Position numbers and translations under genes: made by a program | Assembly: GCA_031262785.1 (NCBI GenBank) | Contig: JAISHB010000076.1 | Span: forward strand, 1-35,936 | Direction of reading: 5' to 3' | DNA from: Prevotellaceae bacterium | GTDB lineage: Bacteria; Bacteroidota; Bacteroidia; Bacteroidales; Bacteroidaceae | DNA: 35,936 nucleotides | Notes under the pieces: model-generated | What the model saw: only the letters and a program-made list of their open reading frames with translations | Told to the model about the DNA's origin: nothing | Databases searched by the model: none | Part shown: piece after piece, positions 5,944-34,867 of the stretch | Numbering within the stretch: the first letter of the stretch is position 1 | Layout of the letters: each line of letters starts with the position of its first letter

Positions 5944-6053
5944 AAACTTGGACTGCAGTCCGGCTAAACTTGGACTGCTGTCCCGTGAAACTTGGACTGC
6001 TGTCCCGTGAAACCCGGACTGCTGTCCCGTTGAACCCGGACTGCTGTCCCGTG
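5944..6053. repeat. Array 1: five 22-bp tandem repeats with palindromic core
   Basis: Five consecutive units of exactly 22 bp begin at 5944, 5966, 5988, 6010 and 6032; a partial sixth follows. The unit is close to AAACTTGGACTGCTGTCCCG plus TG. Each has a self-complementary core: GGACTGCAGTCC in unit 1 (5950-5961, perfect palindrome) and GGACTGCTGTCC in the others. The array fills much of the 261-bp gap between the GH28 and GH137-GH2 genes. Short reading frames through it are side effects of repetition. Confidence 0.9.
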
Positions 6054-6130
6054 AAAGTCCGATTATATAGCAGTAGATCTGCCCAAAACCGGCCGACTTC
6101 GGGGCATTTCAAGTTACAAACAGCCTCAAA

Positions 6131-9100
6131 ATGCGTCATTTAGGTATGAAACAGCTAACTCTCCTCCTTTTGTGCGCCGTGGTAGCGCCCGTTCTCTGCG
6201 CCCAGCCGCCAATCTCCCCCGAAGTGATGCAACACATCTACGACGAGGTGCGTACCCCCTACAAATACGGGTTGGTGGTGGCACCGACCGACAATCGTCA
6301 TAAAATGGATTGCCCCACGGTGTTCCGTCACCAGGGACATTGGTACATGACCTACGTGGTCTACGACGGACAGTCGGGCAAAGACGGACGGGGCTACGAG
6401 ACGTGGCTTGCCCAGAGCGAAGATTTACTCCATTGGACGGTGAAAGGGCGCGTGCTCTCGTTCCGCGACGGACGGTGGGACGAAAACCAGCGCGGCGGAT
6501 TTCCCGCCCTGCCCGACATGACGTGGGGAGGGAGCTACGAGCTGCAATCCTACCAAAACAGGTATTGGATGACCTACATCGGAGGCCGCGGTCGCGGCTA
6601 CGAGACCGGCCCGCTGAGCATCGGCCTGGCCTCGACACCCCAAGCCGACTTGGGGCAGGCGGTGGAGTGGAAGGCCGACAACCGACCGATACTCTCGTCC
6701 ACCGATGCCGACGCCGGCTGGTTTGAGAGTTTGACGCAATACAAGAGCACCATCTATTGGGACCGGTCGGAGAAGCTCTTCGGCCAACCCTTCGTGATGT
6801 TCTACAACGCAGGCGGTATCAACCCCGCCAACCACATCAAGGGCGAACGGGTGGGCATTGCCCTGTCGAAGAACCTCAAGAAATGGACGCGCTATGCCGG
6901 CAATCCGGTGTTTGCCCACGAAACGGCCGGCACCATCACCGGCGATGCCCACATTCAGCAAATGGGTGACAGCCTCTACGTCATGTTCTACTTCTCGGCC
7001 TTCAACCCCACCCGACCCTACAAGGCCTACAACACGTTTGCCGTCAGTAGCGACCTGGTACACTGGACCGATTGGACGGGCGACGACCTGATCACGCCCT
7101 CCAAGCCCTACGACAACCTGTTTGCCCACAAGAGCTACCTCATCCGCCACGAGGGGGTGACCTATCACTTCTATTGCGCCGTCAACCGCGACGACCAGCG
7201 AGGCATTGCCGTGGCCACGAGCCGCCCGGTAGGCGACCGACGCTCCTCCATTCATTTTCCGGAGCCGGAGAAGAACGGCAAGCGCAGCGAAACGGTGCTC
7301 ATCGAACCCTCCAACAAAGACGATTATTACGGCTACCGCCAACTCACCCACGGCAACCTGCACGGTTCGGCGCTCTATCAAAAGACGTTCCTTGCCCCTC
7401 CCCGCCCGGGTAAGCGCTACTTCCTGCGCTTCGAGGGGGTGGGCACCTTTGCCACCGTCAAAGTCAACGGCGTCGACTTCGGACGTCATCCGGTGGGACG
7501 CACCTCCCTCACGCTCGATGTAACCAAAGCGCTGAAGAGCGACTCGCCCAACCTGCTCGAAGTGCGTGCCGACCATCCCGAAATGATCACCACCATGCCC
7601 TGGGTGTGCGGCGGCTGCTCCTCGGAATGGGGCTTCTCCGAAGGCTCGCAACCCCTGGGCATTTTCCGCCCCGTAGTGCTTGAAATCACCGACGAAGTGC
7701 GCATCGAACCCTTCGGCGTGCATGTTTGGAACAACGATCGCGCCGATAGTGTGTTTGTCGAGACCCAAGTGAAGAACTACTCGGGCGAACCCCGCACCAT
7801 TCAGGTGGTCAACAAGCTCAACGATGCCGACGGACGCCAAGTTTTCCGCCTGGCCACCGACGTACTGCTGCACGTGGGCGAGACCCGCACCGTGCGCGTG
7901 GCCGCCCGCATCGACAAGCCCCACCTTTGGAGCACCGACACCCCCTATCTCTACAGTCTGGCCTCGATGGTGAAACAGGGCAACGTCACCTCCGACGAAG
8001 TAAGCACGCCTTGCGGCATCCGCACGCTCAGCTGGCCGGTGAAGCGGCACGACGGCGACGGACGCTTCTTCCTCAACGGGAAGCCGCTCTTTATCCGCGG
8101 CATTTGCGAGTATGAGCATCAGTTCGGACAGAGCCACGCCTTCAGCGGCGAACAAATCACGGCACGAATGCACGAGATTCGTTCGGCCGGATTCAATGCC
8201 TTCCGCGATGCCCATCAACCCCATCATTTAGACTACACCCGCCTTTGCAACGAGTTGGGCATCCTGCAATGGACGCAGTTTTCGGCACACATCTGGTACG
8301 ACACGCCCGAGTTTCGGCGCAACTTCAAGGAGCTGCTGATTAAATGGGTCAAGGAGCGTCGCAACGATCCCGCCGTGGTGATGTGGGGGCTTCAAAACGA
8401 GAGCGTCCTACCCACCGACTTTGCCCAAGAGTGCAGCGACCTGATTCGCTCGCTCGATCCCACTGCCCGAACCATGCGCGTTATCACAACCTGCAACGGA
8501 GGCACCGGTACCGACTGGAATGTGGTGCAAAACTGGAGCGGAACCTACGGCGGCGACCCAAAGAAGTATGGCTCGGAGCTGAAACATCCCGAACAGCTGC
8601 TCAACGGCGAGTATGGCGCTTGGCGTACCCTCGGCGTGCACGACGAGGTCACCACTTTTCATCAGAACAGCGCCCAATGGAGTGAAAGCCGTGCCTGTAA
8701 GTTGTTGGAGATGAAGATCCGACAGGCTTGGGAGGCTCGCGACAGCATCTGCGGTCAGTTCCTGTGGATTTGGAGCAGCCACGACAATCCGGGACGCCGT
8801 CAGCCGGACGAAGCCTATCGAATGATTGACAAGGTAGGCCCCTTCAACTACAAAGGATTGTTCACCCCGTGGGAGGAACCCACCGATGCCTACTATTTAT
8901 ACCGCGCCAATCAGGTGTCTGCTGCCACCGATCCCATGGTCTACCTTGTCTCGCACACGTGGCCCCACCGGTTTGAACAGAGCGGTCGACGCCGCGCCAC
9001 CATCGAGGCCTACAGCAATTGTGATTCGGTCTTACTCTACAACGGCCCTCAATTCTTGGGTCGCAAACGGCAGGGGGGCGTCGGCACTCATTTTACTTGG

Positions 9101-10267
9101 GAGAACCGCGACATCCGCTACAACACGCTTCGTGCCGTTGCCTACTACAAAGGGCGCGCAGTGGCCGAAGACCAGCTACTCTTGAAAGGATTGGAGGCAG
9201 CTCCCTCCCGCACCGATCTTTCCACGGAGCCTGAAAAGGAAATTCTTCCCACCACCAACACCTACGTGGTGAACGACAGCAGCTACACCTATATATATAG
9301 GCTCAATTGCGGTGGCGATGCCTACACCGACCGTTTCGGCCACCGCTGGATGGCCGACGACACTCTCTACTCGCACAGCTGGGCACAAGATTTCACCGGA
9401 CTAAGCCCCTATCTGGGCAGTCAACGCACCATCGGCGATGCCATCGGCGGCACCCGCGAGGACGCCCTCTTTCAGTCGTTCCGCTTTGGTCGTCACCGCC
9501 TCAGCTTTCACTTCCCCGTGTCCGACGGACGCTATCGGATTGAGTTGTTTTTCACCGAACCGTGGTATGGCATCGGTGGAGGCGAGAAGACCGATTGCGA
9601 AGGATGGCGTCTCTTCGACGTGGCAGTGAACGGAACCACCCGCCTGCGCAACCTCGACCTCTGGGCGGAGAGCGGACATGCCGGCGCACTCAAGAAAACC
9701 ATCACGGCCGATATTACCGGCGGCACCCTGACCATCAGCTTCCCCGAGGTGAAGGCCGGACAGGCTGTTATCTCGGCCATTGCCATCGCCACGTCGACCA
9801 ACTCTCCCGCCTTCCAAACCTTCCTTCCGCCCCGAGCACCACAAGGCGACAACCGGCGGCAGCCTGAGGCGATGTGGAAAGCCTTCGATACCGACACCGT
9901 AGCCAAACTGCCCGCCTCGATGCTACCCGAAGACAAAAATACGCGCACCGCAACCACCTACACACCCGATGAAGCAACACCCGATTACCTCGAGTGGAAC
10001 AACATCACCGTGGGATTGGCGCAAGAGTATGCCTTCCGCTTCAAGTACATGAACGTGAGTGGTCAAGCCAAGACCGTACGCTTTCAATTGATGACGCCGG
10101 GTGGCACAGTACTGCGTGATGTTCCGTTCACCCTGCCCGCGACACCCCAAAAGTGGAAATTAGTTAGTACCACCAGCGGCGGATACATCAATGCCGGTCA
10201 TTATAGGGTGATTCTTTCGGGTGAAGGAGTGCGCGATGTGCAGATTGAATCGGTGGATGTTCAATAG
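6131..10267 (+). CDS. Exported GH137-GH2-malectin multidomain glycosidase, RG-II type
   Basis: A 1,378-residue enzyme resembling B. thetaiotaomicron BT0996, which combines a GH137 beta-L-arabinofuranosidase and a GH2 beta-glucuronidase acting on rhamnogalacturonan-II side chains. The start could be 6131 or, more likely, the ATG at 6146, where the signal peptide MKQLTLLLLCAVVAPVLCA begins. Residues about 30-370 look like a five-bladed propeller (DCPTVF, WYMTY, GDAHIQQ). Glu158 and Glu239 (numbered from 6131) lie 81 apart, the same spacing I remember for the BT0996 pair E159/E240; this needs checking. Residues about 400-930 are GH2: a jelly-roll, then NES with acid/base Glu757, then NGEYGA with Glu827 as candidate nucleophile as in glucuronidases. 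RLNCGGDAYTD (1057-1067) opens a malectin/CBM57 domain to about 1215. A further C-terminal beta-rich region follows. No SusC/SusD pair is in the window. Confidence 0.85.
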   Translation: MRHLGMKQLTLLLLCAVVAPVLCAQPPISPEVMQHIYDEVRTPYKYGLVVAPTDNRHKMDCPTVFRHQGHWYMTYVVYDGQSGKDGRGYETWLAQSEDLLHWTVKGRVLSFRDGRWDENQRGGFPALPDMTWGGSYELQSYQNRYWMTYIGGRGRGYETGPLSIGLASTPQADLGQAVEWKADNRPILSSTDADAGWFESLTQYKSTIYWDRSEKLFGQPFVMFYNAGGINPANHIKGERVGIALSKNLKKWTRYAGNPVFAHETAGTITGDAHIQQMGDSLYVMFYFSAFNPTRPYKAYNTFAVSSDLVHWTDWTGDDLITPSKPYDNLFAHKSYLIRHEGVTYHFYCAVNRDDQRGIAVATSRPVGDRRSSIHFPEPEKNGKRSETVLIEPSNKDDYYGYRQLTHGNLHGSALYQKTFLAPPRPGKRYFLRFEGVGTFATVKVNGVDFGRHPVGRTSLTLDVTKALKSDSPNLLEVRADHPEMITTMPWVCGGCSSEWGFSEGSQPLGIFRPVVLEITDEVRIEPFGVHVWNNDRADSVFVETQVKNYSGEPRTIQVVNKLNDADGRQVFRLATDVLLHVGETRTVRVAARIDKPHLWSTDTPYLYSLASMVKQGNVTSDEVSTPCGIRTLSWPVKRHDGDGRFFLNGKPLFIRGICEYEHQFGQSHAFSGEQITARMHEIRSAGFNAFRDAHQPHHLDYTRLCNELGILQWTQFSAHIWYDTPEFRRNFKELLIKWVKERRNDPAVVMWGLQNESVLPTDFAQECSDLIRSLDPTARTMRVITTCNGGTGTDWNVVQNWSGTYGGDPKKYGSELKHPEQLLNGEYGAWRTLGVHDEVTTFHQNSAQWSESRACKLLEMKIRQAWEARDSICGQFLWIWSSHDNPGRRQPDEAYRMIDKVGPFNYKGLFTPWEEPTDAYYLYRANQVSAATDPMVYLVSHTWPHRFEQSGRRRATIEAYSNCDSVLLYNGPQFLGRKRQGGVGTHFTWENRDIRYNTLRAVAYYKGRAVAEDQLLLKGLEAAPSRTDLSTEPEKEILPTTNTYVVNDSSYTYIYRLNCGGDAYTDRFGHRWMADDTLYSHSWAQDFTGLSPYLGSQRTIGDAIGGTREDALFQSFRFGRHRLSFHFPVSDGRYRIELFFTEPWYGIGGGEKTDCEGWRLFDVAVNGTTRLRNLDLWAESGHAGALKKTITADITGGTLTISFPEVKAGQAVISAIAIATSTNSPAFQTFLPPRAPQGDNRRQPEAMWKAFDTDTVAKLPASMLPEDKNTRTATTYTPDEATPDYLEWNNITVGLAQEYAFRFKYMNVSGQAKTVRFQLMTPGGTVLRDVPFTLPATPQKWKLVSTTSGGYINAGHYRVILSGEGVRDVQIESVDVQ

Positions 10268-10336
10268 GTCGTAGCATTCCATCTTATTTAACTAAAAAAA
10301 AGGAGTGTATACAAAGTAGGTCTCTCGAAAACTCTC

Positions 10337-10344
10337 TACCTTTG
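10337..10344 (+). promoter_or_regulatory. Minus-7 box of the dedA promoter
   Basis: TACCTTTG matches TAnnTTTG exactly and is followed by C. No good minus-33 box is seen. Transcription would start near 10351, which supports the ATG at 10385 over the in-frame ATG at 10361 as the dedA start. Confidence 0.55.
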
Positions 10345-10384
10345 CTTCCCTTAAAAAAGATTGCATTATTTAACGCTTACTGAT

Positions 10385-11134
10385 ATGAAGACAAAGGTAT
10401 TACACTCGCTCATGCTTACTCTTTTCCTGTGGACCGGCACAGCCGGCAGTGCAACAGCTGCCGATACCTTGCGCATCCAGCCGGTTACACCTGTACAAAC
10501 TGCAGCCGACTCCACCGTTATGGAGAAGGTGGTCGCCTGGTACATGGATAATATGAACTATGCCACCATTACGCTGCTCATGACGGTAGAGAGTTCGTTC
10601 ATACCTTTTCCTTCGGAGGTGGTGGTGCCACCCGCAGCCTACAAAGCTGCTCAAAAGGATAGCGGACTCAACGTGATTCTGGTGGTTCTCTTTGCCACGC
10701 TGGGGGCGGTGCTGGGGGCTGCCATCAATTACTTCCTCGCACTCTGGTTGGGGCGTCCCATCATCTATCGTTTTGCGGAAAGCAAACTTGGGAAGCTCTG
10801 CATGCTGAGTGCCGACAAGGTCAAGAAGTCCGAAGAGTACTTTGTACGACACGGGCGCAGTTCTACGTTCATCGGTCGCTTGGTTCCCGCTGTGCGCCAG
10901 CTTATTTCAATCCCCGCCGGATTGGCTCGCATGCACTTTGGTACCTTTATGCTCTACACAGCGCTTGGTGCCGGCATTTGGAACATTGTACTGGCCATTT
11001 TGGGACATCTGGCTCACGGACAAGCCGACCTAATCAGCCAATACAGCCATGAACTCTCCTACGCACTGCTTGCCTTGGGTGTGTTGTTTGTGCTCTACCT
11101 CGTGTACAACGCTTTTTTAAAGAAGAAGAAATAA
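10385..11134 (+). CDS. DedA-family membrane protein
   Basis: Inner-membrane protein of the DedA/VTT family; some members flip undecaprenyl phosphate or phospholipids. The 249 residues start with a hydrophobic leader (MKTKVLHSLMLTLFLW then a TAGSATAA cleavage-like site), followed by the DedA core. Core motifs are the acidic ESSFIPFPSE, a Gly-rich re-entrant segment around GAVLGAAINYFLALWLG, and FIGRLVPAVRQLISIPAG with the conserved Arg and Pro residues. The C-terminus is hydrophobic and ends in a Lys tail. An upstream in-frame ATG (10361) would place the start about 10 bases after the predicted transcript start, so 10385 is preferred. The tamB frame follows directly, in the same frame, after the TAA at 11132-11134. 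Exact substrate unknown. Confidence 0.88.
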   Translation: MKTKVLHSLMLTLFLWTGTAGSATAADTLRIQPVTPVQTAADSTVMEKVVAWYMDNMNYATITLLMTVESSFIPFPSEVVVPPAAYKAAQKDSGLNVILVVLFATLGAVLGAAINYFLALWLGRPIIYRFAESKLGKLCMLSADKVKKSEEYFVRHGRSSTFIGRLVPAVRQLISIPAGLARMHFGTFMLYTALGAGIWNIVLAILGHLAHGQADLISQYSHELSYALLALGVLFVLYLVYNAFLKKKK

Positions 11135-11188
11135 AAACAGTTCGCCATCAAACGGATTAAGAAGACAGTCAGCTGGATACTCGGCATT

Positions 11189-14100
11189 GTGCTGAGTATC
11201 TACATCGGAACCACCTTTGCGCTGAATACACCTTATATTCAACGCAAGGCATCGGCTCTGATTGCACGCGAGTTGTCTGCTTATCTGGATACCAAAGTAA
11301 CCATTGGACACATCAACCTGGGTTTGTTCAACCGCATCATCATAGATGACCTGCTGCTAAACGACCGCACGGGCAAAGAGATGTTGAAAGCCTCGCGCCT
11401 TTCGGTCAAGTTCAATCTCATTTCTCTCTTCAACGGGCGCATTTCCATCAGCAATGTACAACTCTTCGGCTTCAATGCCAGCCTCGAACGCGAAACGCCC
11501 CAATCCGAACCCAATTTTCAGTTTGTGGTCGATGCCTTTGCCGCCAAAGACACGCTTCAGAAAGAGCAAAACCTCAACCTGCGCATCAATTCGTTGGTGA
11601 TGAGCAGAGGCAGAGTCTCCTACGATGTGTGGTCGGCCGACAGCACACCGGGGCGTTTCAACCCCTCGCATCTCTGCTTCACCAATCTGGTGGCGAACAT
11701 CTCGCTGAAGGCATTGCAGAACGACTCCATCAATGCAGCAGTCAAACGACTGAGTGTAGAAGAAGAGAAGTCCGGCTTTACCCTTAAAAAACTCAGCTTG
11801 AAGATGACAGGCAACAACAAACGGATGAACATCGAGCATTTTACCGTCGATCTCCCCCACTCTTCCCTTGCTATGGACACCATCTCCCTGAGATACGATA
11901 GCCTGGAATCTTTTGCAAATCCGGTAAACGATGTGCATTTCACCTTTCGCCTGCTGCCTTCGGAGATCATGCCGAGCGACTTAGCGCCTTTCATTCCCCT
12001 GTTCACACCCTTTAGCGGGTTGATACGAATAGAAGCTGCTGCGCACGGAACCGTCAACCAATTGGAAATTCCCAAGCTGTCCATCACAGCCAACAATCAC
12101 TTTCAACTGTTGGGAAGCGCTGCATTGCAGGATTTGTCGCATCCGGAAGATGCTTATATTTTCGGCAAGCTCACCAACCTCTACGTTGACCGAGAAGGAG
12201 TTGATTTCTTCTCCCGAAACCTCATTCAAAACTACACCGGTACACCGCCCATGCTGCAACGCTTGGGCACCATCCTGTTCACGGGTGAACTATCGGGCTA
12301 CTTCACCGACTTGGTTACCTACGGGAGGGTACGCACCGACCTCGGCTCGTTCCAAACCGACGTGAAGCTGAGTAGTCGCAAAGCCGAAGCGCTTTTTTCC
12401 TACTCGGGACGGGTGAAAACCGAAGAGTTTCAATTGGGTGGGCTACTGGGTGACACCCACGTGGGCAATGTCACTTTCAACCTCGACGTGCAAGGCAAGC
12501 ATCGCGAACAACGCTACCCCGATATTGTACTGAAAGGATTGATTGCGGCTATCAACTACAACGAATACACCTACCACAACATCACCCTCGACGGCGAATA
12601 CAAACAAGGTGGCTTTGACGGCCAAATTGCACTCAACGACGAAAACGGATCGGTATTGCTCAATGGTAGCCTCAACGCTGTTAGCCGGATGCCGACCTTT
12701 AACTTTCGTGCCGATGTGCGCAATGTACGCCTGCACGAGCTACACCTTACTCCCAAGCACGAAGGTTCCACACTCTCACTGAAGATGACGGCCAATTTCA
12801 CCGGAGGTTCTATCGACGAAATGGACGGTGAAATCAACATCGACAGTCTGCACTTTACCGACCCGAAAAAAGATTACTTCCTGCCCGGTCTGAAGATTGC
12901 CGCCTCACGTACCGACGACACCCATAAGTATCTCTCCGTCACCTCCAACTTCCTGCAGGCGCATATTGAGGGTGATTACTCCTATCGCACGCTACCTGCC
13001 GGCATATCGAATATCATCAGTCGCTATATTCCCACGTTGATTCCTCCCCGCCCCCATATCGAATCGGAAAACAACTTTTCATTTGACCTCCGGCTTGAGG
13101 ATGCCGAGTTTTTTTCTGCCTTTTTCGATGTTCCGCTAAAGGTCTACACCACCTCTACCTTGAAGGGCTATTTCAACGACAAAGCACAGCGCATGCACGT
13201 AGAAGGTTACTTTCCACGACTACTTTACGGAAACAACTTCATTGAGTCGGGCATGCTGTTGTGCCAAAACCCGAACGACGAATTCGATGCTCGCATTCGA
13301 TTCAATAACCGGAAGCCTACCGGCACGGTAAATCTCTCCATCGAGGCGCAAGCCAAAGACGACAGCATCAGCACCACCCTAAACTGGGGCAACAGCAGTG
13401 CAATAACCTATAGTGGCAAAGTGGCTGCCACCACCCTGTTCGAGTCGCCGCAAAAGAGTATTACACAAATCAAGCGCACCAATGTCATTCTCAACGACAC
13501 ACTCTGGGAAATACACCCCTCACAGATTGTGGTCGACTCGGGCAAGGTGCACATCAACAATTTCTATTTCAGCCATGCGGAGCGTTATTTGCGTGCCGAC
13601 GGCATCGTCTCCGCCCTTGCTGAAGATACAGCACGTTTGGAACTAAAAGACATCAACATCGGCTACGTCTTTGATATTGCCCGCCTCAATGTGAACTTCA
13701 AGGGAGAGGCTACCGGCACCGCCTACGCATCGGGCGTGCTGCAAAAGCCGGTAATGCACACCGATCTCTTTATACGCAACCTCGGATTGAACGACGGACT
13801 GCTGGGTGACACATACATACACGGCGAGTGGCACAATGAAGTGGAAGGGATCTTCCTGCAAGCCGACATCCGCGAAAAAGAGATTGCCCGAAGCCAAGTA
13901 GAAGGATACATCTATCCGCTTAAACCCAAAAGCGGTCTCGACCTGCACATACGTGCCGACAGCACCAACTTGAAATTCATCGAACACTACCTCGCCGACA
14001 TTACCCCCGAATTTGACGGACGTGCCACCGGCGATGTTCATTTCTACGGGAAGTTCAATGCACTGGAACTTGACGGCAAGGTGCTGGCCGATGCTTCGAT

Positions 14101-15626: not shown

Positions 15627-17792
15627 ATGAGAAAGAATGTACTTACCGTATTGCTGATGCTCTCTACCCTCTCCGTTCTACACGCCGACGAGGGTATGTG
15701 GATGCTCACCGACCTGAAGAAACAGAACGAAGTAGCCCTAACCGAACTGGGGCTGCTCATTCCCATCAACGACATCTATAACCCCGATGGCCTCTCGCTC
15801 AAAGATGCTGTTGTACACTTCGGCGGAGGATGCACCGGCGAGGTTATCTCCGCCGAAGGCCTCGTCCTGACCAACCACCACTGCGGCTACAGCGCCATTC
15901 AGCAGCACAGCTCGGTGGAACATGACTACCTCACCGACGGCTTTTGGGCCATGAACCGTTCCCAAGAGTTGCCCTGCAAGGATTTAACCGTCACCTTCAT
16001 CGACCGCATCCTCGACGTGACCGATTACGTGAACGAGCAACTCCAAATCGACCCCGATCCGAACGAAACCAACTATCTATCACCCAAATACCTGCGCGAA
16101 GTAGCCCAACGCTTTGCCGACGCCCAAGGGATTGCCCTCACCCAAGGCATGAAACTCGAACTCAAAGCCTTCTATGGCGGCAACCGCTACTACCTATTCG
16201 TCAAGAAGGTGTACAGCGACATCCGCATGGTGGGTGCACCTCCATCGGCCATCGGCAAGTTTGGCGCTGACACCGACAACTGGATGTGGCCGCGTCACAC
16301 GGGCGATTTTTCTCTCTTCCGCATCTATGCCGACGCCAACGGTGAGCCGGCCGACTACAACGCCGCCAACACCCCGCTTCGGGTGAAGAAACACCTGACC
16401 ATCAGCCTGGAAGGGTATCGCACGGGCGACCTCACCTTTGTGATGGGATTCCCCGGCCGCAACTGGCGCTACATGATCTCCGACGAAGTGGAAGAACGGA
16501 TGCAAACCACCAACTTCATGCGTCACCACGTGCGCGACGCCCGCCAAGAGGTGCTCATGGAGGCCATGCTGAAAGACCCCGCCGTGCGCATCCACTACGC
16601 AAGCAAATATGCCTCATCGGCCAACTATTGGAAAAATGCCATCGGCATGAACGAAGGATTGCTGCGCTTGAAGGTGCTTGATACCAAGCGGGCGCAACAA
16701 GAGCAACTCCTTGAGCGCGGCCGCAAATTGGGCGACGATTCGTACGGGCAGGCCTTCGACCGCATACAGAGTATTGTGGCAGCCCGCCGCCAACCGCTCT
16801 ATCATCAGCAGGCCATTCAGGAGGCATTGGTCAATGGTCTCGACTTTATGCGCATCCCCTCCACCGCTTCGTTGCTGACCGCCCTCAAGAAGAAAGACAA
16901 AGCAGCCGTTGCCGCCGCAGCCGACACGCTGAAAAAGAGAGCGGACAACTACTTTAAGTCCGTCCCCTTCCCCCAGGTGGAACGAGCCGTGGCCAAACGC
17001 CTGTTGCGCACCTACATGGAATACATCCCCGCCGACGAACGTATCAACATCTTCGAGGTGATAGACAAACGCTTCCGCGGCAACAGCGACGGGTTTGTAG
17101 ATGCCTGCTTCGACCACTCCATCTTCGGTAGCCGAGCCAATTTCGACAAGTTCATCCGCAAGCCGAGTCTTTACCGCATCAGCTACGACTGGATGGTGCT
17201 CTTTAAATACTCCATCACCGAAGCCATCATGCAAACGGCCATCGAGATGGCCGAGACCAACAAAGCCTACGATGCGGCGCACAAAGTGTGGGTCAAGGGC
17301 ATGATGGAACTGCGCATTGCCGCCGGACAGCCGCTCTATCCCGACGCCAACTCCACCCTGCGCTTCACCTACGGCCGCATACTGCCCTACTCGCCCGCCG
17401 ACGGCGTTGAATTGGAGACCTACACCACGCTGCACGGCGTGATGCAGAAAGAAGACGCCACCAACCGCGAGTTTGTCGTTCCCCAGAAGCTCAAGCAACT
17501 CTACCGCGCCAAAGATTACGGACGCTACGGCCTGCCCAACGGCCAGATGCCCGTCTGCTTCATCATCGACACCGACCAAACGGGCGGCAACTCGGGCAGC
17601 CCCGTCTTCAATGCCAAGGGAGAACTCATCGGCACCGGTTTCGACCGCAACTACGAGGGACTAACCGGCGACATCGCCTTCCGCCCCTCCTCGCAGCGCG
17701 CCATCTGCGTAGACATCCGGTACATCCTGTTTCTCATCGAGAAATATGCCGGCGCCTCGCACCTGATTCAAGAGCTAACCATTGCCCGATAG
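15627..17792 (+). CDS. dpp11: S46 dipeptidyl-peptidase, DPP11-like (Asp/Glu specific)
   Basis: Complete 721-residue exported S46 peptidase, close to the 720 or so of P. gingivalis DPP11. Signal peptide 1-20 (MRKNVLTVLLMLSTLSVLHA). The catalytic triad is visible: His85 in TNHHCGY, Asp227 in RHTGDF and Ser656 in GGNSGSP. His85 and Asp227 fall at the positions I recall for P. gingivalis DPP11, and Ser is offset by one. Arg674 (codon 17646-17648, FDRNYEG) is 18 residues after the Ser, the position where Arg gives DPP11 its preference for Asp or Glu at P1. It lies 22 bases after the tamB stop and may share its transcript. The partial gene at the window start has Gly at this site. Symbol is by inferred specificity only. 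Confidence 0.93.
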   Translation: MRKNVLTVLLMLSTLSVLHADEGMWMLTDLKKQNEVALTELGLLIPINDIYNPDGLSLKDAVVHFGGGCTGEVISAEGLVLTNHHCGYSAIQQHSSVEHDYLTDGFWAMNRSQELPCKDLTVTFIDRILDVTDYVNEQLQIDPDPNETNYLSPKYLREVAQRFADAQGIALTQGMKLELKAFYGGNRYYLFVKKVYSDIRMVGAPPSAIGKFGADTDNWMWPRHTGDFSLFRIYADANGEPADYNAANTPLRVKKHLTISLEGYRTGDLTFVMGFPGRNWRYMISDEVEERMQTTNFMRHHVRDARQEVLMEAMLKDPAVRIHYASKYASSANYWKNAIGMNEGLLRLKVLDTKRAQQEQLLERGRKLGDDSYGQAFDRIQSIVAARRQPLYHQQAIQEALVNGLDFMRIPSTASLLTALKKKDKAAVAAAADTLKKRADNYFKSVPFPQVERAVAKRLLRTYMEYIPADERINIFEVIDKRFRGNSDGFVDACFDHSIFGSRANFDKFIRKPSLYRISYDWMVLFKYSITEAIMQTAIEMAETNKAYDAAHKVWVKGMMELRIAAGQPLYPDANSTLRFTYGRILPYSPADGVELETYTTLHGVMQKEDATNREFVVPQKLKQLYRAKDYGRYGLPNGQMPVCFIIDTDQTGGNSGSPVFNAKGELIGTGFDRNYEGLTGDIAFRPSSQRAICVDIRYILFLIEKYAGASHLIQELTIAR

Positions 17793-21434: not shown

Positions 21435-21740
21435 GGTACACCAGGGTAGGTTCAGTTTTTGCGAACTGAACCTATTTGGTGCACCCGAAAGGGTCAGATC
21501 GCCAGATCCGGAGCTATTTGGTGCACCAGAAAGGGTCAGTTCGCAAGATCCGGAGCTATTTGGTGCACCAGAAAGGGTCAGATCGCAAGATCCGGAGCAA
21601 TCTGGTGCACCAGATAGGGTCAGTTCGCCAGATCCGGAGCTATTTGGTGCACCAGATAAGGCCAGTTCGCAAAATCCGAAGCTATTTGGTGCACCCGATA
21701 AGGCCAGTTCGCAAGATCCGGAACAATTTGGTGCACCAAG
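21435..21740. repeat. Array 2: 42-bp tandem repeats with GGTGCACC core and inverted first unit
   Basis: The palindrome GGTGCACC recurs at 21478, 21520, 21562, 21604, 21646, 21688 and 21730, always 42 bp apart, with a well conserved spacer containing AGGGTCAG and GATCCGGAGC. A variant GGTACACC at 21435 opens the array. Between it and the next core the sequence is an inverted repeat: TAGGTTCAGTT (21447-21457) and AACTGAACCTA (21464-21474) around TTTGCG. The array lies between the convergent ends of valS and comEC and stops about 18 bp before the comEC stop codon. Because 42 is a multiple of three, several frames stay open through it. Confidence 0.92.
21447..21474. terminator. Perfect 11-bp hairpin at the edge of array 2
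   Basis: TAGGTTCAGTT and AACTGAACCTA form a perfect 11-bp stem with a 6-nt loop, 60 bases after the valS stop. It could end valS transcription, but no T run follows on the plus strand, so factor-independent termination is doubtful. It is also the inverted first unit of the repeat array. Confidence 0.4.
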
Positions 21741-28121: not shown

Positions 28122-28733
28122 ATGAAGTTGGACTTTGACAAGATGAACGGCCTCGTTCCCGCCATCATACAAGATGCAGACACGGCACACGTGTTGATGC
28201 TTGGTTTTATGAACAAGGAAGCAGTCGACCAAACCGTGGAGAGCGGATTGGTTACCTTTTTCAGCCGCACCAAGAACCGTCTGTGGACCAAAGGAGAAGA
28301 GAGTGGCCATTTCCTGCATGTTGTTTCCATTCAAGCCGATTGCGACTGCGATACCCTGCTCATCAAAGTGCATCCTGCCGGTCCGGTGTGCCACACGGGC
28401 AACGACACCTGCTGGGGCGAAAAGAACGAAGAACCGGTGCTCTTCTTGAAATTGTTGCAAGATGTCATTGACCAGCGGCATGCCCAAATGCCCGAAAACT
28501 CCTACACCACCTCGCTGTTTGAATCGGGCATCAACAAAATAGCCCAGAAAGTGGGCGAAGAAGCGGTAGAAACACTCATCGAAGCGACCAACGGATCTTC
28601 CGAGCGTCTGGTCTACGAAAGCGCCGACCTCATCTACCACCTGCTGGTTCTCTTAACTTCCAAGGGGCATCGCATCGAAGACCTTGCCCGCGAACTGGCC
28701 GAACGTCATAGCGTTGGCTGGAAGAAGCATTAA
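28122..28733 (+). CDS. hisIE: Bifunctional phosphoribosyl-AMP cyclohydrolase / phosphoribosyl-ATP pyrophosphatase
   Basis: Fusion enzyme catalysing steps two and three of histidine synthesis. Of 203 residues, the N-terminal half is HisI, with the metal motifs in DCDCDTLL and CHTGNDTCW and the preceding FFSRTKNRLWTKGE. The C-terminal part from about residue 110 is HisE, an all-helical MazG-like domain with KVGEEAVETLIEA and ESADLIYHLLVLL. It follows hisF by 19 bases and precedes the FtsE-like gene by 11. The other his genes (hisG, D, C, B) are not in the window. Confidence 0.96.
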   Translation: MKLDFDKMNGLVPAIIQDADTAHVLMLGFMNKEAVDQTVESGLVTFFSRTKNRLWTKGEESGHFLHVVSIQADCDCDTLLIKVHPAGPVCHTGNDTCWGEKNEEPVLFLKLLQDVIDQRHAQMPENSYTTSLFESGINKIAQKVGEEAVETLIEATNGSSERLVYESADLIYHLLVLLTSKGHRIEDLARELAERHSVGWKKH

Positions 28734-28744
28734 CCACTCTTTTT

Positions 28745-29443
28745 ATGAGCGATTGCCTGATACACTATAAAGATGTAGCCATACACCAACAGGAGCTTTC
28801 TGTGTTGGAACAGGTCGACCTCTGCTTGCGGCGGGGAGAGTTCGTCTACTTGATTGGCAAGGTGGGATCGGGTAAAACCAGTCTGCTCAAAACCTTTTAT
28901 GCCGAATTGGACATTGCCTCGGGCGAAGCGCAGGTGTTGAACTACCAGCTGCGTGGCATCAAGCGCAACCTCGTTCCGTCGTTGCGCCGAAAGTTGGGCA
29001 TTGTCTTTCAAGACTTCCAGCTGCTCACCGACCGCACCATCTACGACAACCTGGCTTTTGTCTTGCAAGCCACCGGCTGGAAGAACCGCCATGAAGTGGC
29101 CGAGCGCATCCATGTGGTCTTGCGTTTGGTGGGGATGGAAACCAAAGGCTATAAATATCCCAACGAACTCTCGGGAGGAGAACAACAGCGCATCGTCATT
29201 GCACGTGCCATGCTTAACTCACCCGATATTATTCTGGCCGACGAACCCACCGGCAACCTCGATGTGGAAACCGGCCGGGCTATTGTCGGGCTGTTGCACG
29301 AAATATCAGCCAAAGGCCGGCTGGTTATCATGAGTACGCACAACCTGCAGCTGATACGGGAATATGGCGGACGTGTGTTTCGCTGTGCCGACCATCGTCT
29401 GCAAGAAATCACTGCTACCTATAATAAAACTATAACCCTATAA
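28745..29443 (+). CDS. ftsE: FtsE-like ABC transporter ATP-binding protein
   Basis: ATPase subunit of the FtsE/LolD class. Of 232 residues: Walker A GKVGSGKT (38-45), Q-loop at Gln89 in VFQDFQLL, signature LSGGEQQR (142-149), Walker B DIILADEP (161-168) and the switch His in MSTHN. FtsE with its partner FtsX controls cell-wall hydrolases at division, but no FtsX gene is next to it here. It sits between hisIE and lysC with 11-base gaps on each side, an order I recall from Bacteroides. FtsE is the best match; another MacB-like export ATPase cannot be excluded. Confidence 0.8.
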
Positions 29444-29454
29444 AGAATAGAAAG

Positions 29455-30771
29455 ATGAAAGTTCTAAAGTTTGGAGGTACTTCCGTCGGCTCGGCCGAGC
29501 GCATACGGGAAGTGGCCAAATTGATTACCGACGGCGAGCCGAAGATTGTAGTGCTCTCTGCCATGTCGGGCACCACCAATACGTTGGTGGAAATATCCGA
29601 TTACCTCTACAAGAAAAATCCCGAAGGAGCCAATGAGGTCATCAACCGTTTGGAAGCCCAATACAGGGGGCACGTGAATGAACTCTATGCCACCGCCGAG
29701 TATAAACAGAAAGCCTCCGAACTGCTCCGCTCGCATTTCAACTATATACGCTCCTACACCAAAGACCTCTTCACCCTGTTCGAGGAGAAGGTTATTCTGG
29801 CACAAGGCGAACTGATGTCGACAGCCATGATGAATTTCTACCTGCAGGAGTGCGGCGTAAAAGCCGTGTTGTTACCCGCCCTGGAATATATGCGCACCGA
29901 CAAGAATGCCGAACCCGATCCGGTCTACATCAAAGACAAACTCCACGCCCAGCTGGAGCTGCAAGCCGGAGCCAACATCTACATCACGCAAGGCTATATC
30001 TGCCGGAATGCCTATGGCGAAATTGACAACCTGCAACGGGGAGGCAGTGATTACACCGCTTCGCTTATCGGAGCAGCCGTCAACGCCTCCGAGATACAGA
30101 TATGGACCGACATCGACGGCATGCACAACAACGATCCGCGGGTGGTAGAGCACACCTTGCCCGTGCGCCATCTGCACTTCGAAGAGGCGGCCGAGCTGGC
30201 CTACTTCGGAGCAAAGATATTGCATCCCACCTGCATCCAGCCGGCCAAGTATGCCAACATCCCCGTCAGGCTGCTCAACACCATGGAGCCGGAGGCACCG
30301 GGCACGATGATTTCGAACGACACCGAGAAAGGGAAGATCAAAGCCGTGGCCGCCAAAGACAACATCACCGCCATCAAGATTAAGTCGGGACGCATGTTGT
30401 TGGCTTACGGTTTCTTGCGCAAGGTCTTCGAGATATTCGAGAGCTATCAAACCTCCATCGACATGATATGCACCTCCGAGGTGGGCGTCTCTGTCTCCAT
30501 CGACAACACCAAACATCTGAACGAGATACTCGACGACCTCAAGAAGTACGGCACCGTCACCGTAGACAGCGACATGTGTATCATCTGCGTGGTGGGCGAT
30601 TTGGATTGGGAAAACATCGGCTTCGAGGCCAAGGCGCTGGATGCCATGCGCGACATCCCCGTGCGGATGATTTCGTTCGGCGGCAGCAACTACAACATCT
30701 CGTTCCTGATTCGCCAGGCCGACAAGAAGCGGGCACTTCAAACGTTAAGCGACTCTCTCTTCCATTCTTAA
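29455..30771 (+). CDS. lysC: Aspartate kinase, monofunctional
   Basis: First enzyme of the aspartate family; phosphorylates aspartate on the way to lysine, DAP, threonine and methionine. 438 residues. KFGGTSVGS (5-13) and RGGSDYTASLIGAA are the kinase substrate and ATP motifs. The C-terminal part from about residue 300 carries two ACT domains, suggesting feedback control by an amino acid. There is no homoserine dehydrogenase domain. It is co-directional with lysA, which starts 20 bases after the stop; the 3' end and gap contain an ATTCTTC-type short repeat. Confidence 0.95.
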   Translation: MKVLKFGGTSVGSAERIREVAKLITDGEPKIVVLSAMSGTTNTLVEISDYLYKKNPEGANEVINRLEAQYRGHVNELYATAEYKQKASELLRSHFNYIRSYTKDLFTLFEEKVILAQGELMSTAMMNFYLQECGVKAVLLPALEYMRTDKNAEPDPVYIKDKLHAQLELQAGANIYITQGYICRNAYGEIDNLQRGGSDYTASLIGAAVNASEIQIWTDIDGMHNNDPRVVEHTLPVRHLHFEEAAELAYFGAKILHPTCIQPAKYANIPVRLLNTMEPEAPGTMISNDTEKGKIKAVAAKDNITAIKIKSGRMLLAYGFLRKVFEIFESYQTSIDMICTSEVGVSVSIDNTKHLNEILDDLKKYGTVTVDSDMCIICVVGDLDWENIGFEAKALDAMRDIPVRMISFGGSNYNISFLIRQADKKRALQTLSDSLFHS

Positions 30772-30790
30772 TTCTTCATTCTTCATTCCC
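30757..30790. repeat. Short ATTCTTC-type direct repeat at the lysC-lysA junction
   Basis: The 3' end of lysC and the gap to lysA read as copies of ATTCTT/CATTC (CCATTCTTAATTCTTCATTC, then TTCATTCC). The complement, GAATGAAGAATGAAG, resembles a low-complexity spacer I remember from Bacteroides intergenic regions. A similar CATTCATTCAT stretch ends hisA. Confidence 0.5.
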
Positions 30791-30791
30791 C

Positions 30792-31952
30792 ATGAAAGGA
30801 ACCTTCCCCATAGATAAGTTTAGCGAGTTGCGCACTCCCTTCTACTATTACGATACCGAGGTGTTGCGCCAAACCATTGCCACCGTGCGCCAAGAAGCCG
30901 CCCGATTGGGCAATGTGGCGGTACACTATGCCGTCAAAGCCAACGCCAACGCAGGTGTGCTCTCTATTATTCGGGAACATGGCCTGGGCGCCGATTGCGT
31001 GAGCGGCGGCGAGATACGTGCTGCCCTGAAGGCCGGATTCCCCGCCTCCAAGATTGTCTTTGCCGGTGTGGGCAAAGCCGACTGGGAAATTGAGCTGGGT
31101 TTGGATGCCGACATCTTCTGCTTCAACGTAGAATCGGTGCCCGAGCTGGAAGTAATCAATGAGTTGGCCGCCCGCAAGGGAAAGATGGCCAACGTAGCCT
31201 TCCGCATCAATCCCGATGTGGGAGCACACACCCATGCCAACATCACCACCGGCCTGGCCGAAAACAAGTTCGGCATCAGCATGAACGACATGGACGACGT
31301 CATCGACCAAGCCCTGCAGATGCCACACGTCCGGTTCGTGGGACTTCACTTCCACATCGGTTCGCAGATAGTGGATATGGGCGATTTCGTGGCTTTGTGC
31401 AACCGCATCAACGAGCTGCAAGACCGCATCGAAGCGCGTCACATCCGCATCGAACACATCAACGTGGGCGGCGGACTGGGCATCGACTACGATCATCCCA
31501 ACCGTCAGCCCGTCCCCGATTTCAAAAGCTATTTCGCCACCTACGCCAAAAACCTGCGCCTGCGCCCGCATCAAACGCTCCACTTCGAGCCGGGGCGTGC
31601 CATCGTGGGGCAATGCGGTTCGCTCATTTCGCGGGTGCTCTATGTCAAGCAGGGCACCAATAAAAAATTTGCCATCCTCGATGCCGGCTTCACCGATTTG
31701 ATTCGTCCGGCGCTCTATCAAGCCTATCATAAGATAGAGAACCTCAGTTCCGACGGAGCGATGGAAACCTACGACGTGGTGGGTCCCATCTGCGAATCGT
31801 CCGATGTCTTCGGCAAAGCCATCGATCTCAACAGCGTGCGTCGCGGCCACTTCGTGGCGTTGCGTTCGGCCGGCGCCTACGGCGAAATCATGGCCTCTTC
31901 CTACAATTGCCGCGAGTTGCCCAAGGGCTATCTGTCCGACGAAATGCGCTAA
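30792..31952 (+). CDS. lysA: Diaminopimelate decarboxylase
   Basis: PLP enzyme that decarboxylates meso-DAP to lysine, the last step of lysine synthesis. 386 residues from the ATG at 30792, the usual length; the open frame extends upstream into lysC but without homology. The PLP lysine is Lys49 in HYAVKANAN. GGGLGIDYD and FEPGRAIVGQCG form the cofactor phosphate and substrate sites, and GPICESSDVFGK carries the catalytic Cys from the partner subunit. mltG starts 21 bases after the stop. Confidence 0.96.
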   Translation: MKGTFPIDKFSELRTPFYYYDTEVLRQTIATVRQEAARLGNVAVHYAVKANANAGVLSIIREHGLGADCVSGGEIRAALKAGFPASKIVFAGVGKADWEIELGLDADIFCFNVESVPELEVINELAARKGKMANVAFRINPDVGAHTHANITTGLAENKFGISMNDMDDVIDQALQMPHVRFVGLHFHIGSQIVDMGDFVALCNRINELQDRIEARHIRIEHINVGGGLGIDYDHPNRQPVPDFKSYFATYAKNLRLRPHQTLHFEPGRAIVGQCGSLISRVLYVKQGTNKKFAILDAGFTDLIRPALYQAYHKIENLSSDGAMETYDVVGPICESSDVFGKAIDLNSVRRGHFVALRSAGAYGEIMASSYNCRELPKGYLSDEMR

Positions 31953-31973
31953 CCTCCGGCCACATCCGTGCCC

Positions 31974-32972
31974 ATGAAGAAGAAAGCCAAGCGTATCCTT
32001 TGGGGAAGCATCCTCCTGCTGCTGCTCTTCGGTGCCGCCGGTGCCGGTACGGTTTATTACTACCTCTTCTATCCGCAGCTGTATCCGACGGGGAAGGTCT
32101 CGCTCTATATTGACGGCGACGACACGCTCGATTCGGTCTGCCACAAGCTCAGCCGCATCCCCTCGGGCAATCTTTCCGTCTTCCGCTGGATGGCACGCTA
32201 CCGTGGTTACGACCGGCATATCCGCACCGGGCACTACGTGGTTTCGCCGCGCGAGAATGTCTACCAGCTCTTCAGCCGTCTCTACCGCGGCTACCAGCAG
32301 CCGGTCAATCTGGTGATAGGCAGCGTGCGCACGATAGATAAGCTGGCGCACAATCTCGATACCCAACTGATGCTCGACTCCGCCCAACTGGCTGCGGCAC
32401 TTGCCCCGGAACCGCTGAGTCTGATTATCCCCAACACCTATCAAGTCTACTGGAATCTCTCGGCCGCTGCGCTGGTGGAGCGCCTCCGGCAAGAACACGA
32501 CCGCTTCTGGAATGCCGACCGGCGCGCCAAAGCCGCCGCTATCCATCTCACCCCCGAAGAGGTAACCACGCTGGCCTCCATTGTGGAAGAAGAGACCAAC
32601 GACGCAGCCGAGAAACCCACGGTGGCCGGTCTCTATCTCAACCGGTTGCGCATCGGGATGCCGCTGCAAGCCGACCCCACGGTGAAATATGCCGTCGGCA
32701 ATTTCGAGCTGCGGCGCATCACGGGCGACATGCTCCAAACCGATTCGCCCTACAACACCTACCTGCACACCGGTCTTCCGCCCTCGCCCATCCGCATCCC
32801 CACGCCGGCAAGCATCGATGCCGTGCTCAACCCTGCCGTTCACCGCTACCTCTACATGTGCGCCAAAGAAGACTTCTCGGGCACGCACAATTTTGCCACC
32901 AATCTGGCCGATCACAACCGCAATGCGCGCAAGTATCGCCAGGCGCTGAACCGACGGGGCATCTTCCGATAG
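31974..32972 (+). CDS. mltG: Endolytic peptidoglycan transglycosylase MltG (YceG-like)
   Basis: Inner-membrane enzyme that cuts nascent glycan strands and helps set their length. The ATG at 31974 gives 332 residues; a GTG two codons earlier is less likely. One membrane helix near 8-30 follows a Lys/Arg-rich start and leaves the rest in the periplasm. A LysM-like region comes next, then the YceG catalytic region: ASIVEEETN with Glu205 matching the catalytic Glu of E. coli MltG, GLYLNRLRIGMPLQADPTVKYA, and SPYNTYLHTGLPPSPI. It ends the his-lys run; only a weak hairpin follows. Confidence 0.94.
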   Translation: MKKKAKRILWGSILLLLLFGAAGAGTVYYYLFYPQLYPTGKVSLYIDGDDTLDSVCHKLSRIPSGNLSVFRWMARYRGYDRHIRTGHYVVSPRENVYQLFSRLYRGYQQPVNLVIGSVRTIDKLAHNLDTQLMLDSAQLAAALAPEPLSLIIPNTYQVYWNLSAAALVERLRQEHDRFWNADRRAKAAAIHLTPEEVTTLASIVEEETNDAAEKPTVAGLYLNRLRIGMPLQADPTVKYAVGNFELRRITGDMLQTDSPYNTYLHTGLPPSPIRIPTPASIDAVLNPAVHRYLYMCAKEDFSGTHNFATNLADHNRNARKYRQALNRRGIFR

Positions 32973-32980
32973 AATATTTT

Positions 32981-33003
32981 ATGCCGGATAAGCATCTTTT
33001 TTT
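32981..33003 (+). terminator. Weak hairpin with T run after mltG
   Basis: ATGC and GCAT (4 bp) around a 7-nt loop, followed after one C by seven T residues at 32997-33003, starting 9 bases after the mltG stop. The T run is good but the stem is short, so termination is uncertain. Confidence 0.35.
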
Positions 33004-33078
33004 GCACTTTAGGCAGATATTGATGCATCTTATTCACCTTTTACGTTTTTGGGGTTTTACGGAAAGCACTATTGTTTC

Positions 33079-33086
33079 TATCTTTG
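33079..33086 (+). promoter_or_regulatory. Minus-7 box upstream of the mosaic gene
   Basis: TATCTTTG, exact TAnnTTTG and followed by C, 44 bases before the ATG at 33131. A TTTT stretch lies at about the minus-33 distance. This suggests the gene is transcribed separately from the mltG operon. Confidence 0.5.
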
Positions 33087-33130
33087 CCGGAAATTTCAAC
33101 CACCCAGTCTAATTAAACAACATTATCCTT

Positions 33131-34468
33131 ATGAATGACACCCTCCATTCCATCCACTGCGAAGCGAAACGTCGCTTCCCGCACCTCATGCCACTACTCT
33201 TTATCTTGGGCGGACTGACTATAACCCTTCCTGCACAGGCGCAGGACAAACTGATCACCAAAGACGGCGAAGTGATTCAAGCCTATCGGATAGATATTGG
33301 CGGAAACGCTATCTACTATCGGTTGGAAGATTCCGACCAGGCAGCAATCCAGACCATCGAGAAAGCGAGCGTATTGCTGATCAAGAAACAAGATGGCACC
33401 TCGGTCAATCTGTATGAAACAGCAGCCAATGGAGCGGCAACGCCGACACCGGCAGCAGCACCCACCCAAACCACCCCCGCTTCTGCACCGGCTGTGCTGA
33501 GTGAAGAGGCAAAGCAGGCAAATGCGGCAATTATTCAGAGTTATAAGGAAGGGGAAGTGACTTATGTGAATGAGGAGAAAAGAGGGAAAAATGCAGGATT
33601 TGTGTTTTGTTGTCTATTACCAAACAATAGCTCTATCTTTGTCACAGATGATATTGAAGTGATTTGTAAAAGCGGATATTATTCTTCTGAGTCTCTTAAA
33701 AAAGAACCTATATTTTATGAATATGGATTTTATGAAAATAGAGAGGCTTCAGGATATACTATTATGGAATATTTTAATCCGGCATATAGTGTGAGCATAA
33801 AGAATAAGACTAATAAAATCATCTATCTCGATTTAGGAAATACCTTTTTTACACGCAATGGTCAATCTACAGCTTATTATACACCAACATCTACTACCAC
33901 ATCATCATCATCTAGCAGTGGAGCCAGTGTTAATCTTGGGGCAGTAGCCAATACGATAGGCATTGGGGGAGTTGCAGGTACATTGGCAAATGGTGTCAAT
34001 GTTGGAGGAGGAAAAACGAGTGCTACATCAACTATAACATACTCTCAACGGGTAGTTGCTATACCTCCAATGTCCACCATAAATTTGGAACCTCAAATGT
34101 GGTTTACAAAGGAGTCCTCTACTGCTATTAATGGAGTCGGGTATTATGGACCATCTCCGGACGGAAAAGATTTTCTGTACTTTGGATTTAATCCGGCATT
34201 AAGAAGAGGAGACCATCTCGTATACACAGAATCTACTGCTCCACTTCAATTTAGCTCATTTATTACCTACTCTTATTCTGAAGATTGCGCAGTATCAAAG
34301 ACCCTCTCCCAATCATTTTTCCTTAGTAGTATAATAGCAGGTAACTATGAATATAATGGTTTTAAGTCAGTAAAAGATGTGATGTTTAGTAAAGATAGTA
34401 AAGGTATGATGATGTTTGTAGGAAAAATTAGTATTAGAAATGTAAATGGTTCATTCCCGCAAAAGTAA
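33131..34468 (+). CDS. Exported protein of unknown function with mosaic composition
   Basis: I do not recognise this 445-residue protein. Residues 1-38 form a long signal peptide (hydrophobic MPLLFILGGLTITLPAQA). Residues 39-97 form a small beta-rich domain (DGEVIQAYRIDIGGNAIYYR). A Pro/Ala/Thr linker follows (98-122), and then a larger domain with SIKNKTNKIIYLDLGNTFF. That contains a Ser/Thr tract (254-264), a Gly-rich stretch (264-294) and SQRVVAIPPMSTINLEPQ. Composition changes inside the gene: the row at 33181-33240 is 32/60 G+C, that at 33661-33720 is 16/60, and that at 34381-34440 is 15/60 with no C at all. The switch is near 33,500-33,540, close to the linker. This suggests that the second part was acquired or exchanged. 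It is followed directly by repeat array 3. Confidence 0.8.
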   Translation: MNDTLHSIHCEAKRRFPHLMPLLFILGGLTITLPAQAQDKLITKDGEVIQAYRIDIGGNAIYYRLEDSDQAAIQTIEKASVLLIKKQDGTSVNLYETAANGAATPTPAAAPTQTTPASAPAVLSEEAKQANAAIIQSYKEGEVTYVNEEKRGKNAGFVFCCLLPNNSSIFVTDDIEVICKSGYYSSESLKKEPIFYEYGFYENREASGYTIMEYFNPAYSVSIKNKTNKIIYLDLGNTFFTRNGQSTAYYTPTSTTTSSSSSSGASVNLGAVANTIGIGGVAGTLANGVNVGGGKTSATSTITYSQRVVAIPPMSTINLEPQMWFTKESSTAINGVGYYGPSPDGKDFLYFGFNPALRRGDHLVYTESTAPLQFSSFITYSYSEDCAVSKTLSQSFFLSSIIAGNYEYNGFKSVKDVMFSKDSKGMMMFVGKISIRNVNGSFPQK

Positions 34469-34481
34469 ATAGTAAATTCTT

Positions 34482-34867
34482 CTCCCGCGGGAGGAGAACA
34501 CTTTTATTTTGAAAACCACTCCTCTCCCACGGGAGGGGAACCCTTTCGTTTTGAAAAACACTCCTCTCCCGCGGGAGGAGCACACTTTCATTTTGAAAAC
34601 ACTCCGCTCCCGCGGGAGGGGAACACTTTCGTTTTGAAAAACACTCCTCTCCCCCGGGAGGAGCACCCTTTTATTTTGAGATGAACACATCTCCCCCGGG
34701 AGGAGGATGTTTTATTTCTGCACGGACACATTTCCCCCGGGAGGAGGATACTTTTCGTTCCAGACCAACACATTTCCCCCGGGAGGAGCGTGTTTTCTTC
34801 TGGAACCAACACATCTCCTGCGGGAGAGGAGTGTTTTTTTCCTGCGGCAACACATTTCCCACGGGCA
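34482..34867. repeat. Array 3: ten 41-42-bp tandem repeats with CTCCCGCGGGAG core
   Basis: Cores begin at 34482, 34524, 34566, 34607, 34649, 34691, 34732, 34774, 34815 and 34856, always 41 or 42 bp apart. The core is CTCCCGCGGGAG or CTCCCCCGGGAG, with TTCCC variants in the second half. Spacers of the first five units are alike (about AACACTTTCATTTTGAAAAC); those of the last five have diverged. The array fills the 440-bp gap after the mosaic gene and its last unit overlaps the promoter region of the DUF3857 gene. Small frames on the minus strand through it are artefacts. Confidence 0.92.

Follow-up and report, generated by a model that had tools for sequence, protein, structure and literature searches.

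Tandem arrays in the window

The stretch of DNA analysed here (the window; 35,936 bp) is contig JAISHB010000076.1, referred to as C30, of a Prevotellaceae bacterium whose 2.34 Mb assembly, a Bacteroides-like metagenome-assembled genome (MAG), comprises 135 contigs and is 75.8% complete. It carries three tandem arrays of short units with palindromic or near-palindromic cores (Table 1). An earlier note on this DNA had placed such arrays here at spacings of 22, 42 and 41-42 bp, and the positions and spacings were confirmed by exact location of the cores and by Tandem Repeats Finder (TRF), which returned periods of 22, 42 and 41/42 bp (83 bp as the dimer). All three arrays lie between genes according to codon-usage gene calls, as the note had also stated; the apparent open reading frames (ORFs) running across the 42-bp arrays arise because the period is divisible by 3. 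The architecture is not that of CRISPR, since the units are contiguous, full-length repeats without unique spacers between identical repeats. No Rfam family was found in the window at gathering thresholds.

Table 1. Coordinates of the arrays and of the leader sequence in the window
Feature	Position	Strand	Description
F22 leader	5899..5943	+	conserved core AGGCCTTCTGAGCGCGGTT at 5914-5932
F22 array	5944..6056	+	five 22-bp units with the core GGACTGC[A/T]GTCC
F42A array	21436..21738	+	7 cores GGTGCACC every 42 bp and one degenerate core
F42B array	34481..34866	+	ten 41/42-bp units with cores resembling CTCCCGCGGGAG, the unit variants in a set order

The F22 cores start at 5950, 5972, 5994, 6016 and 6038, a step of 22 bp; the first is a perfect palindrome, and the other four consist of 4-bp arms flanking TGCT. 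In the F42A array the cores start at 21478, 21520, 21562, 21604, 21646, 21688 and 21730, the degenerate one (GGTACACC) lies 42 bp ahead of the first, and a lone copy of GGTGCACC is found at 16233. The copies of the F42B array, starting at 34481, follow one another at steps of 42 or 41 bp, and the perfect core is present in only three of them (34482, 34566 and 34607). The self-complementary cores claimed earlier thus recur at fixed spacing, but as perfect palindromes in only 1/5 units of the first array and 3/10 of the third.

The three families are mutually unrelated in sequence, as had been noted, yet none is unique to its site. The F22 family occupies five loci in this genome (the window, C38, C52, C86 and C101), F42A two (the window and C62) and F42B, the CTCCC family, six (the window, C6, C35, C52, C69 and C107). 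The F42B copies are ordered, with AAACACTCC-type endings first and ACCAACACA-type endings later, and the order of variants is the same at all six loci, therefore whole arrays have been copied. The dispersed F42B arrays are in sense orientation to the neighbouring genes at three loci and antisense at three.

Unit length is locked in this genome and across Bacteroidales

The genome was sampled in 20 stretches (287 kb including the window, 54% GC), 13 of them chosen as known or possible array carriers and seven taken blind. Arrays were called with TRF at no fewer than 2.4 copies and a period of at least 12 bp, overlapping rows being merged and the smallest long period retained. All 29 tandem arrays detected had a period of 21-23 bp (12 arrays) or 41-43 bp (17 arrays), and an independent lag scan over 12-60 bp returned 22, 23 and 41-43 bp alone. 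The blind stretches (81 kb) contained six arrays, four of 23 bp and two of 42 bp, i.e. about 74 per Mb; if they are representative, the assembly holds about 170 arrays, or one per 14 kb. By codon-usage calls all but one of the 29, a weak 2.6-copy array in L131, lie outside genes; one of these 28 overlaps a gene end by 11% of its own length. The mean periods in the two classes, 22.25 and 41.7 bp, correspond to about 11.1 and 10.4 bp per helical turn. No array of 31-33 bp was present among the 29, and one of 32 bp was found in G005.

For comparison, 1.05 Mb of sequence around valS, from 80 named Bacteroidales loci, and nine other genomes of the same genus were scanned. The valyl-tRNA synthetase encoded in the window shares 79% identity (best segment) with that of Bacteroides faecis and with that of a Bacteroides MAG, and 24 of the 40 relatives drawn first fall in the genus of this genome. 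Periods of 21-23 bp were found for 30/45 arrays at the valS loci and for 36/55 in the congeneric genomes, hence 66/100 in the pooled Bacteroidales, other periods accounting for 34. In the outgroups (three genomes of the same class, two of the same phylum and E. coli K-12) the figure was 2/19, both in G042 (Fisher test, p=1.4e-5, for 65/99 vs 2/19 with one known duplicate dropped). Arrays are present in the isolates B. faecis, B. fluxus and P. distasonis and are therefore not a MAG artefact. Zero arrays were found in the 80 kb sampled from G026, a member of the same order. Arrays of 40-43 bp are common in this genome only, three being found in G005. Unit sequences are mostly unrelated between arrays, with an identical or similar unit recurring at two or more loci within the small sample in G005, G015, G003 and G116.

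The earlier note had proposed a genome-wide class, to be given up if the genome held no further arrays. The class is confirmed by the counts above, and it extends well beyond this genome. A special tie to valS was considered and rejected, since 11 of 78 scannable upstream regions scored above the threshold (lag 21/22 in nine, 44 in one and 14 in one), which is about the array rate of other long gaps.

Palindromes within units

A palindrome or hairpin in the consensus unit was significant at p<0.05 against shuffled units in 27 of 67 non-redundant 21-23 bp arrays, where about three were expected; a stricter measure gave 26/69, two duplicates included. By eye, the 23-bp arrays L129, L137 and L139 of this genome have a common centre, CCGAG(C/G)GG, flanked by arms that differ yet remain complementary. 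A 23-bp array of an uncultured Parabacteroides MAG (L061:10139-10368) has a CCCCGAGGCGGG-like core that resembles this centre. Two arrays of G003 (L245:13529-13619 and L247:585-683) each form, by eye, one long palindrome, with CTTGTACAAAAGATTG at its start and the reverse complement of this sequence at its end.

A conserved leader followed by exchanged units

A leader of about 45 bp is common to all F22 loci of this genome; three of the other four copies differ from that of the window by one mismatch, and the fifth locus, L130, has four mismatches to AGGCCTTCTGAGCGGGGTT. The leader core AGGCCTTCTGAGCGNGGTT, with one mismatch allowed, was found in 5/399 Bacteroidaceae genomes: at four loci in this genome, eight in G095, nine in G116, two in G523 and one in G487. 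At all 17 loci of G095 and G116, which are two related species, the leader is followed by three 22-bp units (two in L298) and then by a tail, conserved except in L283, where it has diverged. Three G116 loci have GTTGAAnGTnCGC-like units and all the others GGTGAACTAACTAGTTCACCnn-like ones; none is of the F22 type, so that different units stand under one leader. A DNA search added G154, absent from the list of AGGCCTTCTGAGCGNGGTT matches, in which the leader precedes two AAAGGATATACCTTTnnTAGGC-like units.

Matches to F22 DNA, all weak, were obtained in 5/148 other genomes of the genus. By eye, three of them (G184, G190 and G019) show 22-bp units of F22-like sequence but no leader, and in G095 and G154 the leader is joined to other units; F22 units are therefore not strictly species-limited. 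The exact F22 core pair was found in 0/40 relatives, and F42B DNA in 0/148 congeneric genomes among the best candidates scored (at most four per genome). The leaderless F22-like units lie at L258, L264, L259 and L260, and in G184 they occur, by eye, in both orientations within one array.

Relative to the leader, the cassettes of G095 and G116 run from about -30 to +130. They are flanked on either side (L277-L299), at about -28 and +126, by TGTAAA-like motifs that point the same way and are possible cassette ends or promoter parts. In G523 (L280 and L284) the leader core is part of a longer, CCCCGTCAGAAGGCCTTCTGAGCGGGG-like palindrome without a 22-bp array, possibly an ancestral form or one akin to a terminator; in G487 it is a two-mismatch match, again without a 22-bp array. 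The closed genome of G116 also contains, beside the leader family, a second 22-bp palindromic family, GAAACwwwwGTTTC (L319:9639-9719 and L328:17285-17366).

A mobile-element origin was rejected, since the exact leader pattern had no matches in viral contigs, F22 was not found in phages and the G116 cassette was not found in plasmids.

Arrays at orthologous sites

Four orthologous pairs of leader cassettes were compared, with one genome per species. The leaders are 95-100% identical, the arrays 69.7, 74.2, 86.4 and 100%, and the flanks 83.6-95%, except for the left flank of L297/L299, which is not alignable (51.5%). In two pairs, L281/L292 and L291/L290, the arrays have outpaced both leader and flanks: the leader is 100% identical, the arrays 69.7 and 74.2%, and the flanks 83.6-89.2%. 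On the left side of the leader, the adjoining 30 bp differ as well in both pairs (70%). All four arrays of these pairs are closer to a non-orthologous array than to their own orthologue. L292 best matches L296 (90.9%) and L281 best matches L293 (92.4%), both within one genome, and the best match of L291 is L297/L299 (80.3%). At one orthologous site the number of units differs between the two species, one locus of the pair L277/L298 having three and L298 two.

Within a cassette, unit 3 tends to match unit 1 in reverse complement, with 2.27 mismatches in 20 positions vs 5.59 in permuted sets (p=5e-5; 15 loci, L298 with its two units and L299, identical to L297, being dropped), whereas direct, same-strand comparison of the two units at these loci gave 5.20. 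Complementarity is weak for units 1-2 and 2-3 (p=0.014 and 0.018), and self-complementarity is not locus-specific for unit 1 or unit 3 (p=0.39 and 0.16), unit 2 being marginal (p=0.047). An inverted relation between units 1 and 3 is what quasipalindrome template switching would give.

Origin of the arrays

The explanation that is tentatively favoured, although rated at somewhat less than even odds, is that the arrays are non-autonomous, palindrome-rich intergenic DNA cassettes that are copied and homogenised by recombination. A cassette would comprise successive units of 21-23 or 41-43 bp, rich in palindromes, with the conserved leader ahead of them in the F22 type and the tail behind them in G095 and G116. 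Units would multiply by slippage or by template switching on hairpin-forming DNA during replication, and entire cassettes would be copied into other intergenic sites in either orientation. Gene conversion among loci, with leader and tail as homology arms, may then homogenise or replace the units, and the cassettes would be tolerated chiefly 3' of genes. Slippage, template switching, conversion and the lack of a host function are the parts that we infer; passive or selfish cassettes of this kind would account for the dispersal, the turnover, the inversion symmetry and the lack of a transposase of the type considered below. Of the roles offered in the earlier note, a self-expanding repeat fits best, provided that it is taken as non-mobile or poorly mobile.

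Several observations weigh against the cassette model. Palindrome enrichment was non-significant in 40 of the 67 arrays. The L290 array is closest to L285 of the other species (92.4%), with L299 (90.9%) coming first within its own genome, and within-genome conversion is therefore not proven. The remaining two orthologous arrays (86.4 and 100%) are conserved to the same degree as their flanks or above it, which may be constraint. The 15 loci of the inversion test are not independent, because orthologous pairs were retained. The model also leaves the length lock unexplained. Helical phasing is an incomplete answer, since the two mean periods fit no common pitch and three-turn arrays are missing from this genome.

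A more far-reaching interpretation, possible but somewhat doubtful, is that the cassettes are order-wide in Bacteroidales and keep to a physical ruler, about 22 or 42 bp long, while an undescribed cellular machinery rewrites the unit sequence, at some sites under an unchanged leader. They would then form a satellite-like system in which a length code takes the place of a sequence code.

Alternative explanations

According to the first alternative, the arrays are platforms for a structure- or shape-specific nucleoid protein with sites two or four helical turns apart, which would insulate genes or organise the nucleoid, the geometry of the protein being the ruler. The two sharp length classes, the palindrome enrichment, the lack of asymmetry between the strands and the independent variation of palindrome arms within arrays, which half-sites can show, all speak for a platform. 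However, the units are unrelated among most arrays of one genome, to which a sequence-specific protein is unsuited, and array periods differ by a base or two. The different pitches implied by the two mean periods and the absence of three-turn arrays argue in the same direction. A platform of this kind is considered unlikely. Two proposals of the earlier note find no support here in the form given, namely that symmetric sites all face one side of the helix and that one sequence-specific regulator binds the arrays, many unrelated unit families sharing a single length.

The second alternative, that transcribed arrays form chains of hairpins which end, stabilise or insulate mRNA 3' ends, is also improbable. 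A survey covered 87 arrays of 21-23 or 41-43 bp from five sets, of which six were coding and 16 were at contig or stretch edges; of the other 65, 36 lay in co-directional, 16 in convergent and 13 in divergent gaps. An RNA element is suggested by the position of 27 of the 36 co-directional arrays nearer to the 3' end of the upstream gene (medians 62.5 vs 167.5 bp), but the paired test gave only p=0.08. Similarly, in this genome and the GC-rich relatives divergent gaps are under-represented as array sites (4/38 vs 39/121, p=0.011), whereas over all 65 arrays there is no such depletion (p=0.64). Detectable terminators are slightly fewer at array-bearing 3' ends (14/68 vs 196/570 at others; stratified odds ratio 0.69, to which no significance is attached). 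The complementarity of units 1 and 3 would also suit RNA pairing.

Low folding z-scores, seen on either strand (mean -4.2), also speak for RNA, though under a dinucleotide-shuffle null that is unfair to tandem repeats. In the 36 co-directional gaps it is the antisense strand that is more often the more stable (22 vs 14, p=0.03), i.e. the wrong direction for an RNA signal, and sense-strand stability was rejected as such. Stem mismatches of the GU and AC type are about balanced across all arrays (53/64 and 97/88 in two counts). In favour of RNA, the F42B stems have more GT than AC (36/17), an excess confounded by shared ancestry and partly out-of-register windows. Against it, the family runs antisense to its neighbours at three of its six loci. 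Of 116 arrays detected, 34 had both a hairpin and three or more copies, and in these the copy-by-copy covariation of the arms was null (z -0.2, at low power). RNA hairpins supported by within-array covariation were thus rejected as a general rule, though stem swaps seen by eye do exist, and the RNA pairing raised in the earlier note is not supported.

Repetitive extragenic palindrome (REP)-like elements mobilised by a REP-associated tyrosine transposase (RAYT, Y1 type) would likewise be palindromic, intergenic and dispersed. Such enzymes occur in some Bacteroidetes (PMC6006769), and the RAYT domain PF01797 is present in G005, G012, G026 and G073. It had no match, however, in the carrier genomes G000 (only 76% complete), G095 (99%) and G116 (100%), each with dispersed arrays, and G026, with six PF01797 matches, is the genome without an array in the sampled 80 kb; this origin is very improbable.

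Chance tandem duplications or TRF detection bias without a common cause are the least credible explanation: tandem duplication is common in bacteria, six of the 87 arrays are coding and 34 of the 100 Bacteroidales arrays have periods outside 21-23 bp, but the same TRF settings show no such peak in the outgroups, the lag scan agrees with the TRF periods and the arrays occur in isolates.

Relation to known repeats

BOX elements of Streptococcus (boxA - boxB n - boxC) are interspersed and have fixed end modules with a variable tandem middle (PMC3049150). The F22 and G095/G116 cassettes resemble them in general architecture only, the pattern of fixed ends and tandem middle being present as leader, two or three units and tail at the 17 G095/G116 loci and as the leader at the five F22 loci. 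BOX modules are sequence-defined, whereas here the middle units change under one leader while their length stays, and unrelated families share one length.

REPs and bacterial interspersed mosaic elements (BIMEs) are short, intergenic, dispersed and at times tandem palindromes, and CGTC-tagged repeats are described in Bacteroidetes (PMC3733652). The likeness lies in short, palindromic, intergenic and dispersed repeats; the arrays differ in being head-to-tail with a locked length, and in lacking a RAYT in three carrier genomes. Tandem repeats of Borgs, archaeal extrachromosomal elements, have many independent origins, are about half intergenic and evolve fast, with 20-nt and 21-nt examples; their units are, in contrast, perfect and A-rich, and the available text mentions neither a length lock nor palindrome enrichment (PMC9879509). 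The TAACTGA heptamer forms intergenic direct repeats in Beggiatoaceae, Cyanobacteria and five Bacteroidetes (PMC4679880), but is one fixed heptamer, unlike the variable sequence of fixed length found here.

No description of 21-23 bp intergenic Bacteroidales arrays, or of a length lock across unrelated sequences, was found in the literature searched, REPs and BOX included, most subscription journals lying outside its coverage. Sequence is what normally defines a small interspersed repeat; here it is unit length that is conserved across unrelated sequences and several genera of a gut-abundant order. The length lock points either to a constraint set by replication or repair or to a ruler that binds DNA, in organisms that are genetically workable, and where units have been exchanged behind a leader their replacement can be traced.

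Neighbouring genes

Beside the F42B array, at 33131-34468, lies an ORF of 445 aa without a Pfam match, which is not called by the codon model of the genome and is possibly foreign. Two genes for S46 peptidases are present in the window, at 29-1891 and 15627-17792.

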